Below are positions 17,269-57,952 of a stretch of DNA of 64,000 nucleotides, piece after piece. How positions within the stretch are numbered: position 1 is the first letter of the stretch; every line of letters begins with the position of its first letter. Below the pieces are notes generated by a model that was given only the letters and a program-made list of their open reading frames with translations, made no database searches and had not been told where the DNA came from. A program made the translations under genes and the position numbers. The stretch comes from a bacterium. Its GTDB lineage: Bacteria > UBA4055. Where the stretch lies: assembly GCA_029559475.1 (NCBI GenBank), contig JAKQBN010000021.1:10345-74344 (forward strand), given 5' to 3'.

Positions 17269-17290
17269 CATCAGTTATTAATTATTCGGC

Positions 17291-17318
17291 AAAAAGGGCT
17301 GCGGACGCAGCCCTTTTT
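17291..17318 (+). terminator. rho-independent terminator
   Basis: AAAAAGGGCTGC, loop GGAC, GCAGCCCTTTTT: a GC-rich 7-bp core flanked by A and T runs, directly after the zinc-ribbon gene. The symmetry means it could work in both directions. Confidence 0.9.
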
Positions 17319-17323
17319 GTTTG

Positions 17324-17352
17324 TTGACATTAACGATTAAAAAATATATATT
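17324..17352 (+). promoter_or_regulatory. promoter of lepA-lepB
   Basis: TTGACA (17324-17329), exactly 17 bases, TATATT (17347-17352), 29 bases before the lepA ATG and immediately after the terminator. Confidence 0.7.
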
Positions 17353-52126: not shown

Positions 52127-53482
52127 TTATCCGATTACTTTAACGCATAAAGCAGCAAGAAATCCTATTAAAGTCGAAAGTCCGGCTATCGTGCTTCCGC
52201 CGTGCTCATATGCCTCGGGAAGCATTGTGTTGGCTATCATCGTAAGCATAGCACCGGCAGCCATTCCTTCTATCCCCGAGATAAAGTAACGGAGATATCC
52301 TTCGGGGTTGCATGGAAAAACGACTGCGCTGATAAGTGCGCCGACCCCTGTCATTATGCATAATGACATCCACATCCAGAATATTTTCTTAAATCCCGAT
52401 CCCTGCCTCTGCATCGTAACTGCGCTCGACATTGCCTCGGGAAGATTGGCTAGAAAAACACCAGCGATAAAAGCCAAACTCATCGCTTTATTCTCTGAAG
52501 CGGCGGCAACAGTAAGCATTCCTATAACCAATGATTCCGGGATGCCGTCCAATGCTATTCCAAGCCATATTGCAAGAGCAGCGCCCCCGTGCTCTTTGAC
52601 TTCGTCTTCAAGATCTTTTTTTGTAACAGGCAGTGAAAGTCTGTTAAGATTTTTCTGCGCTTTTATCTGCCATTTTAGCGATTCCGCTTTAAATGATTCG
52701 TCCTTTTCAGACATATCCTGCAACCTTTCGGTGATTATCTCCGCGCTTGCGTCCTGAAGAGCGAGAGAATATTTGAGCATATTCTGATAATCGCTTTTTT
52801 CCAGAACGTAAACCTGAACGCTGCTGCTGGTGGCTCTTACGTCCGCAGTTCTTGTGCAGTCGGATATGAGAGCTATTTCGCCAAAAGTATCTCCCGCACC
52901 CATTTTCGCGACTACTGTAGGTCCGTTTCCGGTGTCTCTGATCACGTCGACATTCCCTTCGATGATGAAAAAAAGTTCCTGCCCGTCGTTCCCCTGAGTG
53001 ATTATAAGATCGCCCTTCTTATACGACCTCGTTTTTATTACCTGCATTAATTGCGATATTTCTTCCGGAGGCATAAGATGAAGGAATTTGATGGTGCTCA
53101 GACTTTTTATCATCTTTTTTGCGCTTTTATTCTTTTTTAACTGGATATGCCTCTTAAAGAGCGAAGCTTTACGCAAAAAGGCTCCTTTGCTGTTCAGTAT
53201 CCTGTTGAGCATTTCAAAGATCAGTCCGCCCATTATTGCTCCGCCCATAGTCGAAATGATAATAAGATTATCGTGTCCTTCATGCGATAAATGGAGTGAA
53301 TGGGCGAACAGCTCTATGGTTAGAGCGAATAATAAAGCTCCTCCTCCGAAAGCCATCAGGGAAGAAGTTACTTTCTGCGTAGGTTTAGCCCATAACCCTA
53401 TAACTGCACCGACTGGAAGTGAGACCGCGCTTACCAGACCCCAGATTCCCGCCATCATGGCTATGTATGCCGCTGTACTCAT
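52127..53482 (-). CDS. ZIP-type permease with inserted cyclic-nucleotide-binding domain
   Basis: A 451-residue protein with helices near 8-30, 40-62 and 75-96, a cytoplasmic cNMP domain at about 128-250, a charged linker to about 300, and five C-terminal helices to the end. The cNMP domain's phosphate cassette is FGEIALISDCTRTADVRA. In the ZIP part, TM4 reads 'ALDGIPESLVIG' and TM5 'FLANLPEAMSS', so the usual HNxPEG and HxxPEG histidines are replaced. Metal transport is therefore doubtful. The insertion sits in the TM3-TM4 loop where ZIP proteins normally carry a variable His-rich loop. GGAG precedes the ATG. Confidence 0.8.
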   Translation of the reverse strand: MSTAAYIAMMAGIWGLVSAVSLPVGAVIGLWAKPTQKVTSSLMAFGGGALLFALTIELFAHSLHLSHEGHDNLIIISTMGGAIMGGLIFEMLNRILNSKGAFLRKASLFKRHIQLKKNKSAKKMIKSLSTIKFLHLMPPEEISQLMQVIKTRSYKKGDLIITQGNDGQELFFIIEGNVDVIRDTGNGPTVVAKMGAGDTFGEIALISDCTRTADVRATSSSVQVYVLEKSDYQNMLKYSLALQDASAEIITERLQDMSEKDESFKAESLKWQIKAQKNLNRLSLPVTKKDLEDEVKEHGGAALAIWLGIALDGIPESLVIGMLTVAAASENKAMSLAFIAGVFLANLPEAMSSAVTMQRQGSGFKKIFWMWMSLCIMTGVGALISAVVFPCNPEGYLRYFISGIEGMAAGAMLTMIANTMLPEAYEHGGSTIAGLSTLIGFLAALCVKVIG

Positions 53483-53938: not shown

Positions 53939-55030
53939 TTAATTTTTAATATATTTCTTTATTATCTCGATATTACTTTGAAGTTTCTCGACGGCTGCAG
54001 AAGGATTGGTTTCGCTTTCATAGAATCCGTATATGTCTCTTTTGCAGTTCACGCAGTAATTTTTTCCGATTTTATTTTTTGCTCCACACTGACAAACCCA
54101 GATATCGATCTCTTTTGAGGAAAGCATTTTCTTTTTTTTGGTCAATTCGCCCGTCACAAAATTTTTCGACTCAATACTTTCTATAAGAGCCTGATACCTT
54201 TTGATATCGGAATATTCGAAATATTTTTTATCAATGACCGTCAGCTGAAGCGCTTTTCTCCTGATCCTGTCATCTTGCGAGTTCAGATATAATAAAATTC
54301 TTTTCTGATCAAAAATATGCAGTTCGTCCATAAGCCGGATGATAGTATTATCGTATTTTTCATCAGCCTGTTCCATCAAAAACCTGTACAGCAGGTCGAT
54401 CTGTTTATCTTCCTGGATCGAGTTGAAATAGTGAAGCAGGAGGTAGAATATCCTTATCCTTTTATCTCCTTCCGCCGCATAAAATTCCTTCTCAGACTGT
54501 TTTAACACCTCTAAACCTATTTCAAACATGCTGTTCTCCGTTATGAATTTCCAGATGTCTTCATTAAGTTTAAGTTCGTTATTCTTTATCTGACGGGATA
54601 TTTCCTCCCTTCTTCTAAGCTCATCCATTCTTTCGGTGCTGATAACCTCATTTATATTCTCGTCGGATTTGTCGAGAACGTTCCTTTTGTCCTCGGTCAA
54701 TACCGCAGTTCCTGAAGCCGTGATCATGAACATCTTCCTACCCTTGCCAGATATTTCAAGAGTGTCTATTTTCATACCGAGAATACAGTTCCCGCCGGCC
54801 TCGAACGCTTTTGTTTTTAATTTTTCTACTGCCTCTTCGTAAATGAGAGAGACCTCTTTTTGGAAAGTCCGTGAATGAACCCCGATAACGTCATTCAAAG
54901 ATGCAGCCATTTCTCCAAAATACTCCGTATCCGCCACAAAATGCGCAGATACAGGCTTTATGTATCTGATGATCTTCAAACCTTCGTGTGAAGAGGTGGT
55001 AATCACCAGAATGTTTTCTTTTCCGGACAT
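53939..55030 (-). CDS. YbjQ-domain protein with helical middle and zinc ribbon
   Basis: A 363-residue cytoplasmic protein. Residues 1-110 match the YbjQ/UPF0145 heavy-metal-binding fold ('VITTSSHEGLKIIRYIKPVS', 'AFEAGGNCILGMKID', 'ASGTAVLT'). The middle (about 120-315) is helical and charged, with no recognised family. The tail 'WVCQCGAKNKIGKNYCVNC' is a CxCG...CxxC zinc ribbon. YbjQ proteins normally stand alone at about 105 residues, so this is a notable fusion. It has a good ribosome site (GGAGG) and promoter (55073-55101) and is divergent from pyrB. Function unknown. Confidence 0.75.
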   Translation of the reverse strand: MSGKENILVITTSSHEGLKIIRYIKPVSAHFVADTEYFGEMAASLNDVIGVHSRTFQKEVSLIYEEAVEKLKTKAFEAGGNCILGMKIDTLEISGKGRKMFMITASGTAVLTEDKRNVLDKSDENINEVISTERMDELRRREEISRQIKNNELKLNEDIWKFITENSMFEIGLEVLKQSEKEFYAAEGDKRIRIFYLLLHYFNSIQEDKQIDLLYRFLMEQADEKYDNTIIRLMDELHIFDQKRILLYLNSQDDRIRRKALQLTVIDKKYFEYSDIKRYQALIESIESKNFVTGELTKKKKMLSSKEIDIWVCQCGAKNKIGKNYCVNCKRDIYGFYESETNPSAAVEKLQSNIEIIKKYIKN

Positions 55031-55139: not shown

Positions 55140-55168
55140 TTGCGATCTACTCGGAATTTTCTTATATT
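55140..55168 (+). promoter_or_regulatory. promoter of pyrBI
   Basis: TTGCGA (55140-55145), exactly 17 bases, TATATT (55163-55168). A start of transcription near 55175 would give a leader of about 158 bases before pyrB. Confidence 0.6.
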
Positions 55169-55184
55169 TTGACTCCGGTATGTA

Positions 55185-55298
55185 ATGATAAAAACAACTG
55201 CCGGAAAAGGAATGCACTACATCGAACGAATCAAAAGATTCTCCAAAAATAAAGATAGCTTAGAAAAGAAGACACAGGTCTTCTTTTTTTTTGCATAA
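55185..55298 (+). CDS. putative pyrBI leader peptide
   Basis: A 37-codon reading frame begins 10-15 bases after the presumed transcription start, runs through the terminator hairpin and stops at TAA 55296-55298, 34 bases before pyrB. An internal ATG at 55212 has GGA six bases upstream and would give 28 residues; I regard it as the more likely start. The peptide is basic and ends in Phe-Phe-Phe-Phe-Ala from the T-run. The layout resembles the pyrBI leader of enteric bacteria, but the region before the hairpin is A-rich, not U-rich, so UTP sensing by pausing is not evident. Confidence 0.4.
   Translation: MIKTTAGKGMHYIERIKRFSKNKDSLEKKTQVFFFFA
55264..55292 (+). terminator. pyrBI attenuator-type terminator
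   Basis: AAAAGAAGAC, loop ACAG, GTCTTC, then nine T (55284-55292). Both flanking genes are divergent, so this terminator can only act on a transcript from the pyrB promoter. A 5-bp hairpin, GAATC-AAAA-GATTC (55228-55241), lies 23 bases upstream and could be a pause or competing structure. Confidence 0.65.
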
Positions 55299-55332
55299 AA
55301 ATTTAAAAACATAATAAATCTTTGGAGGGCCA

Positions 55333-56247
55333 ATGCCCAAATTTAAAGGAAAATCGATCGTGTCTTTAAAAGACATGGAAAAGAAAGAGATCCTTCATCT
55401 GATGAAAAAAGCTGAAGAGATCAAAAGCGGAAAGCTTACTCAGGTACTGAAAGGTAAAGTAATCGCATCACTGTTCTTTGAGCCGTCAACCCGTACGAGG
55501 TTGTCTTTCGAATCCGCAGTACTCGGACAGGGCGGAAGCGTGTTCGGATTCGCAGATCCTGGAGCATCATCTGCAAAAAAAGGTGAAACTCTCTCTGACA
55601 CCATAAAAAATGTGATGGGATACTGCGACGCTATTGTGATGAGACATTTTATAGAGGGAGCGGCGAGAAGGGCATCAGAGATATCTTCTGTTCCTGTAGT
55701 GAACGGCGGAGACGGAGCGAACCAGCATCCGACCCAGACTTTCTTGGATCTTTTTACAATGCTTGAGAAAAAAGGAAGCCTTGACGGAAAGGTTATAGGT
55801 ATGATGGGCGACCTTAAATACGGAAGAACGATCCACTCTCTCGCAATGGCCTTAACCCACTTCGATGTTAAACTGCATTTCATCTCGCCGAAAGAACTGA
55901 ACATCCCTGATCATTATTACGATTATCTGAAGGCAAAAAAGATCGAATATGTTCATTCAAGTCTGGAATCGTGCGGTAAAGAGCTCGATTTCTTATACTG
56001 CACCAGAATACAGAAAGAAAGGTTCTATGACCCTATGGAATACGAAAAAGTCGCAGGTACCTACAAAATAGATAAGAACTCTCTTGAATATCTGAAGCAT
56101 GATACCTACATTATGCATCCGCTGCCTAGAGTTGACGAAATAGCCGTTGATGTGGATGACGATCCGAGAGCCGTTTATTTTGAGCAGGCGCACAACGGTG
56201 TTCCTGTAAGAGCTGCCCTTCTCGGTCTTGTAACAGGTACAATATAA
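55333..56247 (+). CDS. pyrB: aspartate carbamoyltransferase, catalytic chain
   Basis: Transfers the carbamoyl group from carbamoyl phosphate to aspartate, the second step of pyrimidine synthesis. The 304-residue product has the phosphate-binding STRTR (52-56) in 'FEPSTRTRLSFE', the HPTQ loop near 131-134 ('NQHPTQTFLDLF') and 'DLKYGRTIHSLA'. GGAGGG precedes the ATG. It is followed by pyrI at 20 bases, so the holoenzyme is the E. coli type with regulatory chains. Confidence 0.96.
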   Translation: MPKFKGKSIVSLKDMEKKEILHLMKKAEEIKSGKLTQVLKGKVIASLFFEPSTRTRLSFESAVLGQGGSVFGFADPGASSAKKGETLSDTIKNVMGYCDAIVMRHFIEGAARRASEISSVPVVNGGDGANQHPTQTFLDLFTMLEKKGSLDGKVIGMMGDLKYGRTIHSLAMALTHFDVKLHFISPKELNIPDHYYDYLKAKKIEYVHSSLESCGKELDFLYCTRIQKERFYDPMEYEKVAGTYKIDKNSLEYLKHDTYIMHPLPRVDEIAVDVDDDPRAVYFEQAHNGVPVRAALLGLVTGTI

Positions 56248-56266
56248 ATCATAAATGGAGATAAAA

Positions 56267-56728
56267 ATGCCGGACAATAAACAGTACAAAGTATTTAAGA
56301 TCGAGCAGGGAACAGTGATCGATCATATACCTTCGCCGAGAGGACTCGCGGTTTTCAGACTGCTTTCAAAAAATAATAATTCCCTTATTTCGATCGGGCT
56401 TAATTTCGATTCGAAAAGGGTCGGAAAAAAAGATCTTATAAAATTTGAAGGAAAGATCATCAGCAAGAAGGAGACGGATAAAATTGCTCTGATAGCCCCC
56501 GAAGCCACGATCAACATAATAAAGGATTTTAAGGTTATAGAGAAAAGGCAGATCGATATCCCTTCCGACATACACGGAATAATCAAGTGTCTAAATCCGA
56601 ACTGCATAACGAACATCGAAAAAATTGCTACCAAATTTAAAGTGGTTGAAAAAAAGCCTGTAAAAGTTATGTGTCATTATTGCGAAAGGACAGCTGAAGT
56701 CAAGCCGGACATGATAGACAAGGAATAA
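56267..56728 (+). CDS. pyrI: aspartate carbamoyltransferase, regulatory chain
   Basis: The 153-residue chain binds nucleotide effectors and couples them to PyrB. The N-terminal allosteric domain reads 'KVFKIEQGTVIDHIPSPRGL' and the zinc domain has CLNPNC and CHYC pairs. The ATG at 56267 has GGAG six bases upstream; an in-frame ATG at 56255 lacks a site. Together with pyrB and the leader it forms one unit. Downstream there is a 36-base AT-rich gap before the convergent reductase gene, with no clear terminator. Confidence 0.95.
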   Translation: MPDNKQYKVFKIEQGTVIDHIPSPRGLAVFRLLSKNNNSLISIGLNFDSKRVGKKDLIKFEGKIISKKETDKIALIAPEATINIIKDFKVIEKRQIDIPSDIHGIIKCLNPNCITNIEKIATKFKVVEKKPVKVMCHYCERTAEVKPDMIDKE

Positions 56729-56764: not shown

Positions 56765-57952
56765 TTAGAATAACCTGAATTTATCATATATTTTTCCCCA
56801 ACCGCATTTTATAGCGTAATCTATGCATCTTTCGAAAATCTCATAACTCATTCTCGGGCAAATTATATTTCTGCCTCTCAGTATAGGATCTGCCCGGAAT
56901 GTCAAAAATTTTCGTTTGTCTGCTATGTATGGTAAATACATCCGGATGTAGCTTTCGAATAGATCTTCTAGACCTGTCCTGTCTGAAATTTGTTCGCCAA
57001 ATGTTACACTGAGACCTTCTATGTTAAAATACTTTGAAGTATAACATATCAGCTCCTCTATATTGCCCGGGGAACCGCTGACCAGATGATATATACCTTC
57101 ACGGTCACGCTCTTGAATAAGTGTTATCATTGCCTCAGCAAAGAAATCCACCGGTATCAGATTAAGGCTGCCTCCGTATATACTTCTGAACCTTATCGGC
57201 ATTACAAGAGTTCCGTTATCTTTGAGACTTACTCCCAGCGCTGCGGCTCTCGTTCCGTTTTTCTCCTTTATATCTTTGAGCATGATCTCTTTTATGTAAG
57301 AAAGGGCTTTTACCGGATAGTAGAACGCGTTGAATTTCCTGCTTCTTCCCGTGCCTGATTCACCGTAAACTATCGACGGCCTGTAAATTGTCAGCCTCAT
57401 GCCTTTATCTCTGCAGAATGAGTCTGCAAGTTTCTCCGCCCTGTTCTTGGTCTCTTCGTAAACATTTGTAAACCCGGATGGAATGTTTATCTCTTCAGCG
57501 CATTCCCCCTCTGCCGAACCCGCACTGTATGCTGTGCTCAGATAATGAAAATGTGCAGCTTTTGAGTCATTGGCGTAATTAAGAACGTTGTTTAAAAAGC
57601 CGATGTTGACGGTCTCTATATGTTTTCTGTTTCTTTCTGAAAAATCCGTCTCGGAAGCGCAGTGTATAACTTCCGTAATATCTCTTGCTATTATTTCACG
57701 CTCAGATGGAGAAAGTCCCAGGCCTTCTTTATCAATATATCCTTCATAAACTTTAAGTCCGGGAAGTTTTGAACTGTTCATTTTGAACCATTCGATTATA
57801 TTCTCAATCCTTTCCTGCGCACTTTTGCCGTTCCGCGGCCTGCATATAAGTGTGACTTCATACCCTTTCTTCAAAAGTTCGGTAAACAGATAGCTTCCAA
57901 GAAAACCTGTGCCTCCCGTTATTAAGAACTTTCTTTCCCGATCAGTCGACAT
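56765..57952 (-). CDS. NAD(P)-binding thioester-reductase-like SDR
   Basis: A 395-residue extended short-chain dehydrogenase of the male-sterility/thioester-reductase type (NAD_binding_4). The nucleotide loop is 'ITGGTGFLGSYLFTELL' (11-27), then 'LICRPRNGKSAQERI', 'HCASETDFSER', 'YLSTAYSAG' and the catalytic 'YEETKNRAEKLA' with the YxxxK motif. Such enzymes reduce fatty acyl or peptidyl thioesters. It overlaps the coding region of the flavoprotein gene upstream by 11 bases, so they likely act together. No carrier-protein or fatty-acid genes are adjacent; the substrate is unknown. Confidence 0.8.
   Translation of the reverse strand: MSTDRERKFLITGGTGFLGSYLFTELLKKGYEVTLICRPRNGKSAQERIENIIEWFKMNSSKLPGLKVYEGYIDKEGLGLSPSEREIIARDITEVIHCASETDFSERNRKHIETVNIGFLNNVLNYANDSKAAHFHYLSTAYSAGSAEGECAEEINIPSGFTNVYEETKNRAEKLADSFCRDKGMRLTIYRPSIVYGESGTGRSRKFNAFYYPVKALSYIKEIMLKDIKEKNGTRAAALGVSLKDNGTLVMPIRFRSIYGGSLNLIPVDFFAEAMITLIQERDREGIYHLVSGSPGNIEELICYTSKYFNIEGLSVTFGEQISDRTGLEDLFESYIRMYLPYIADKRKFLTFRADPILRGRNIICPRMSYEIFERCIDYAIKCGWGKIYDKFRLF

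Follow-up and report, generated by a model that had tools for sequence, protein, structure and literature searches.

A candidate protein-free, nucleotide-sensing transcription attenuator before pyrBI in Candidatus Delongbacteria

Introduction

The pyrBI operon serves the first committed step of pyrimidine synthesis, and in many bacteria pyr operons are controlled by PyrR attenuators. The two mechanisms that most closely resemble the leader described here are known chiefly from enteric bacteria, where they have been called 'repression without repressors'. At pyrC and pyrD, CTP shifts the transcription start to a C, and the longer RNA folds such that ribosomes cannot bind (PMC7818426, PMC4491880). 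At pyrBI, ribosomes suppress the terminator (PMC5021804, PMC4824070); they are reported to do so rarely where a terminator lies within 100 bp of the gene start (PMC4824070). In the open-access literature, which does not cover most of the primary papers, we found no report of start-site choice acting via a leader open reading frame (ORF) on a terminator.

The locus lies within a 64,000-nucleotide stretch of DNA (the window) from genome G000, a 2.28-Mb MAG of an uncultured bacterium in Candidatus Delongbacteria; a genome named Candidatus Delongbacteria encodes a PyrB 89% identical to that of the window. A sequence-only reading of the window had proposed a leader-ORF attenuator in front of pyrBI, and we examined this proposal in a set of 13 genomes of the phylum.

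The pyrBI cassette and the absence of pyrR

Window-type pyrB genes are present in four of the 13 genomes, those of the window (G000), G002 (98% identity), G006 (89%), and G004 (80%), and scanning of viral_contigs for further pyrB copies found none. The leader comparison thus involves four copies, which are all those in the collections and include two close relatives (the window and G002). The genes flanking pyrBI differ across all four copies, so the leader stays with pyrBI. Most of the leader sequence also differs, with the layout being kept: all four share the order and spacing of a -10 box, CCGG at position 7, 33 to 42 nt from the predicted start to the leader ATG, and an ORF running through a terminator. 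Homology between the window and G002 is limited to positions 55156 to 56727, a block of 88% identity that begins shortly ahead of the -10 box and ends at the pyrI stop, whereas identity between the two genomes is only 73% at pyrE and pyrC; the promoter, leader, pyrB, and pyrI therefore appear to behave as a single cassette. The G002 copy is on a 3.3-kb contig (C304; L003/L010), and the same genome also carries pyrR-pyrB-pyrC; C304 may have been acquired recently by transfer, or it may be a stray contig.

The sequence-only reading described both neighboring genes as diverging from pyrBI. This is correct for the upstream gene (53939-55030, minus strand), but the downstream gene (56765-57952, minus strand) converges on pyrI. 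Neither neighbor can use a plus-strand terminator at 55264-55292, and the conclusion that it can serve pyrBI only still stands.

PyrR (NF003549) is found above cut-off in 10 of the 13 genomes and is missing in exactly G000, G004, and G006, all of which have pyrBI. In the inspected genomes with pyrR, the order is a conserved gene with a DWIDE/D ending, pyrR, a pyrB that is 36% identical to that of the window, and pyrC; in G000 and G006 the DWIDE/D-ending gene is followed directly by pyrC, and the pyrR-pyrB pair is absent (L044 and L042, compared with L095, L096, L097, and L099). The arrangement suggests that pyrBI with its leader stands in for the pyrR-pyrB pair. The MAGs are 92 to 95% complete, which leaves the absence of pyrR unproven for any single genome, with the G000 and G006 junctions supporting it. 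Because pyrR is absent from G000, PyrR cannot be the regulator of the window's leader. The loss of pyrR had escaped the sequence-only reading, and together with the cassette it provides a natural comparison of how one pathway is controlled with and without a regulatory protein.

Table 1. Positions of sequence features of the pyrBI leader and genes in the window
Feature	Position	Strand	Basis or conservation
-35 element TTGCGA	55140..55145	+	G002 and G006 retain TTGC at an identical 17-bp spacing; G004 does not
-10 element TATATT	55163..55168	+	Kept in 4/4 copies (TATATT/TACATT)
Predicted start region CCGGTA; 5' arm of 5' hairpin	55175..55180	+	CCGG at the same place in 4/4 copies and in E. coli pyrC and pyrD
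5' hairpin, 3' arm TGCCGG	55199..55204	+	Positions -13 to -8 relative to the leader AUG; touches its GGA; folds
Purine-rich GGAAAAGGA, candidate ribosome-binding site of leader ORF	55203..55211	+	Kept as GGAAAAGGA in G002 and GGAACGGGA in G006
Leader ORF, 28 aa, MHYIERIKRFSKNKDSLEKKTQVFFFFA, through terminator stem and T run	55212..55298	+	Relatives have counterparts of 30, 38, and 53 aa
Small hairpin GAATC-AAAA-GATTC, then pyrimidine cluster TTCTCC; RNA polymerase may pause here	55228..55244	+	Sequence, fold
Intrinsic terminator: stem 55264-55273/55278-55287, loop ACAG, nine T at 55284-55292	55264..55292	+	Sequence, fold, covariation
pyrB Shine-Dalgarno GGAGGG	55324..55329	+	Sequence
pyrB, aspartate carbamoyltransferase catalytic chain, 304 aa	55333..56247	+	TIGR00670, 362 bits (cut-off, 237)
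pyrI, aspartate carbamoyltransferase regulatory chain	56267..56728	+	TIGR00240, 164 bits (cut-off, 149); PF01948, PF02748

A conserved terminator precedes pyrB

The promoter TTGCGA-17-TATATT is present where the sequence-only reading had placed it (Table 1), and the predicted start at 55175 is 158 nt from pyrB, in agreement with the leader of about 158 bases described there. The strong hairpin with nine T residues, and pyrB 40 bases after it, was also correctly read; the hairpin (AAAAGAAGAC-ACAG-GTCTTCTTTT, 55264-55287) has a perfect stem of 10 pairs, or 11 if a G-U pair is counted. The sequence-only reading staked its attenuator on conservation of this hairpin in relatives, and sequence comparison shows the hairpin to be kept in all four copies, with covarying pairs. 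The stem is AAGAAGAC/GTCTTCTT in the window, G002, and G006, and GGGTAGAC/GTCTACCC in G004, such that in a short alignment of the four copies all 40 of the 40 cells are paired and three of the 10 pairs are changed on both sides, these changes being in G004; five of 500 shuffles do as well. In every copy the stem lies 46 to 53 nt before pyrB. The more distant pyrB relatives (L012-L034; 30 to 46% identity) yielded no terminator near pyrB, and only three weak hairpins, 230 to 306 nt upstream.

Besides the pyrBI hairpin, the 64-kb window contains only one other long perfect hairpin with a T run after it; a simple terminator scan of the window did not list the pyrBI hairpin. The window's leader as a whole folds better than its shuffles (z, -2.4; 6 of 200). 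Folds of the four leaders contain no visible antiterminator that competes with the terminator stem, and an Rfam scan of the whole window gave no match, including to the PyrR element. A pairing of the pyrB Shine-Dalgarno sequence with TTCTCCAAA, seen in the window's fold, was dropped as it is not kept in G002. Elsewhere in the window, the strongest hairpin-plus-T-run is at 17280-17325 (plus strand; -21.5 kcal/mol).

A leader ORF runs through the terminator

The short frame reported to read through the hairpin was confirmed as an in-frame ORF, which continues past the hairpin to a TAA stop at 55296-55298. There are two candidate leader ATGs, at 55185 and 55212, of which only 55212 is kept in relatives; the longer version starting at 55185 was dropped because the matching G002 frame stops early. 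The pyrB start is 121 nt downstream of the leader start codon in the window. By chance alone, 11 to 30% of shuffles of each leader also contain a frame through the stem, so the joint occurrence of such ORFs in four of four copies is suggestive but falls short of proof. Beyond the close pair, the peptides show no conservation, and since the peptide sequence is not kept, it would be translation of the leader, not the peptide, that matters. In G006 the leader ORF overlaps the pyrB start, and the G004 ORF stops immediately ahead of the pyrB ATG, arrangements in which leader translation would be coupled to pyrB.

The leader's ribosome-binding site is predicted to be weak, as AAGGA directly abuts the AUG and is poorly spaced. 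Moreover, the distance from ATG to stem is only 41 to 55 nt in three of the leaders, compared with 88 nt in G004. Given how rarely ribosomes suppress terminators early in a gene, these short distances imply that an RNA polymerase pause or slow polymerase is needed.

The sequence-only reading noted that the region preceding the stem is rich in A, and this is the case (49% A in the window, 51 to 56% in G006 and G002); at 17 to 20% T, the window, G002, and G006 lack a U-rich pause region, which G004 does possess. In the window, the pyrimidine cluster TTCTCC (55239-55244) is about 20 nt before the stem and is preceded by the small hairpin (Table 1); this hairpin is kept in G002 with one wobble pair, and both hairpin and cluster are absent from this place in G006. 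G004 has a bigger hairpin and a U-rich stretch at this place, resembling the enteric layout. A contribution from polymerase pausing when pyrimidine nucleotides run low is therefore possible; it would be strong in G004 and weak in the other three.

A CCGG pair at the predicted start and the leader AUG

The predicted start region of the window reads ACTCCGGTA. There is no T run at which reiterative transcription could occur, and this mechanism was rejected, there being no homopolymer at the start. Instead, in all four copies and in both E. coli controls there are C residues at positions 7 and 8, and G residues at positions 9 and 10, after the -10 box. All four copies also have a partner for this CCGG (TCGG in G004), whose end lies 8 or 9 nt upstream of the leader AUG. 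The resemblance to E. coli and Salmonella pyrC and pyrD, which likewise have CCGG at positions 7 to 10 and a partner just before the start codon, is evident on comparing TATCCT-TTGTGT-CCGGC...GCCGGAG (E. coli pyrC) and CATAAT-ACGCCC-CCGGT...ACCGGG (pyrD) with TATATT-TTGACT-CCGGTA...TGCCGGA (window); the E. coli sequences are those of MG1655, with -10 boxes assigned by reading the sequence. Loss of the first CC costs 4.2, 2.7, 2.4, and 5.3 kcal/mol in the window, G002, G006, and G004, respectively, which is similar to the 2.9 and 5.1 kcal/mol in E. coli pyrC and pyrD. The enteric pyrBI transcript, in contrast, presumably has no 5'-terminal CCGG, as we take its start site to be downstream of its first CCGG.

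Several comparisons bear on the significance of this pair. Both arms are identical in the window and G002, while the loop has changed; in G006 the hairpin consists of CCGG:CCGG only, around a large loop. Taken one leader at a time, the hairpin is modestly better than shuffles (fractions, 0.02, 0.11, 0.16, and 0.02). A comparable CCGG pair precedes the ATG at only three of 716 other ORF starts in the DNA regions examined. The pattern TATANT-N6-CCGG-N(12-30)-CCGG has 29 matches in the 13 genomes; with two exceptions, in the window and G002 leaders of pyrBI, all of them fall inside long open frames. A shorter 5'-element pattern has 12 matches in G000, and the sites inspected in G000, G004, and G006 are nearly all inside open frames; a reversed-pattern control was not used, since CCGG and GGCC are not composition matched. 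A crude accessibility calculation failed to tell starts at C7 from those at G9 in G006; its separation of the two was also poor in the E. coli controls, and we draw nothing from it. Similar leaders were not seen at pyrC and pyrE of G000 and G006, or at pyrR of the inspected relatives, where other genes are closely upstream.

Having noted that the A-rich region did not obviously suit UTP-dependent pausing, the sequence-only reading suggested that another signal, or leader translation itself, might be read. It missed the CCGG pair at the predicted start and leader AUG, which offers a possible candidate for such a signal in CTP/GTP at initiation.

A proposed composite mechanism and its alternatives

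It is very likely that an attenuator of some kind precedes pyrBI, as the sequence-only reading proposed, and its termination would probably be controlled by leader translation; whether start-site choice in turn gates that translation is an even call. In the scheme we propose, the pyrBI leader attenuates transcription by sensing nucleotides without a regulatory protein, through two coupled parts. When CTP is plentiful, transcription would start at C7 or C8, and the CCGG-beginning RNA would pair with the CCGG/TCGG that overlaps the leader's ribosome-binding region; the untranslated leader ORF would then allow the terminator to form, and transcription would end before pyrB. When CTP is scarce, transcription would start at G9, and the GG-beginning RNA would pair poorly; a ribosome could load and, if close behind the polymerase, would cover the stem such that pyrBI is transcribed. 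Slow elongation at low pyrimidine nucleotide levels would help the ribosome to keep close. The direction of the response is inferred along with the start positions, and the composite as a whole, in which the choice of start controls leader translation and this in turn determines termination, has about the same chance of being right as of being wrong. Against it stand mainly the weak ribosome site of the leader and the short distance from its ATG to the stem. The more specific version, in which a CTP-dependent start choice acts beyond elongation pausing alone and the composite arose in a phylum remote from enterics, on a cassette replacing a lost pyrR-pyrB pair, we hold tentatively and with somewhat less than even confidence.

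The composite differs from each of its known counterparts. At pyrC and pyrD the hairpin blocks the enzyme gene itself, whereas here it would act on a leader ORF before a terminator, with transcriptional read-through as the output. As in E. coli and Salmonella pyrBI, with its leader gene pyrL, a leader ORF runs through an intrinsic terminator directly before pyrBI, and G004 further resembles pyrL in its ATG-stem distance (88 nt, compared with 89 nt in E. coli), its hairpin and U-rich stretch, and a stop codon beside the pyrB start; the leaders of the window, G002, and G006 are unlike pyrL in being shorter and A-rich, and a T run at the start for UTP-dependent stuttering is lacking. Control of pyr genes through a leader terminator is also a feature of Bacillus-type PyrR attenuation, and pyrR is present in most genomes of this phylum, but the window's genome has no pyrR and the window no Rfam PyrR element.

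The main rival to the composite is a plain enteric-type attenuator, in which UTP- or CTP-sensitive pausing lets the leader ribosome block the terminator, and CCGG is a discriminator or a 5' stabilizing hairpin with no switching role. G004 has the full layout for this, and the window and G002 at least have the small hairpin and a pyrimidine cluster at a suitable distance from the stem. However, three of the four leaders are A-rich at this place, G006 has neither hairpin nor cluster, and the fixed CCGG at position 7 with its partner at the leader AUG is left unexplained; we consider this reading unlikely, while taking it seriously. It is improbable that the hairpin is an unregulated, leaky terminator that merely lowers expression, or that ends a small RNA or short gene: the poor conservation of the peptides and the chance occurrence of frames through the stem would fit such a role, but not the compensated stem in an otherwise barely alignable leader, its constant distance from pyrB behind the same promoter layout, or the persistence of the leader with pyrBI amid different flanking genes. 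The conserved CCGG...CCGG could alternatively be a binding site at which PyrR, or another RNA- or DNA-binding protein, controls termination or initiation. This we judge quite improbable, in view of the missing pyrR in three of the four pyrBI genomes, the lack of Rfam matches in the window, and folds in which nothing competes with the terminator stem.

If the composite is correct, these mechanisms may arise, or travel, independently, since the same start-region signature occurs together with a leader-ORF attenuator in a candidate phylum. The two could also be combined, with the chemistry of initiation controlling termination.

Carbamoyl phosphate supply and a neighboring gene

A search for the large subunit of carbamoyl-phosphate synthase (carB) found none at an E value of 1e-20 in any of the 13 phylum genomes, and the same search was positive in 14 of 14 controls. 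For the small subunit (carA), nothing scored over the cut-off in the 13 genomes, with partial matches to the glutamine-amidotransferase half only. Carbamate kinase matches are present in 12 of the 13, and in this phylum the carbamoyl phosphate used by aspartate carbamoyltransferase for pyrimidines may come from this enzyme. Elsewhere in the window, a minus-strand gene at 52127-53482 encodes a ZIP-type metal transporter (PF02535) that carries a cyclic-nucleotide-binding domain (PF00027) midway along its length, an unusual fusion.
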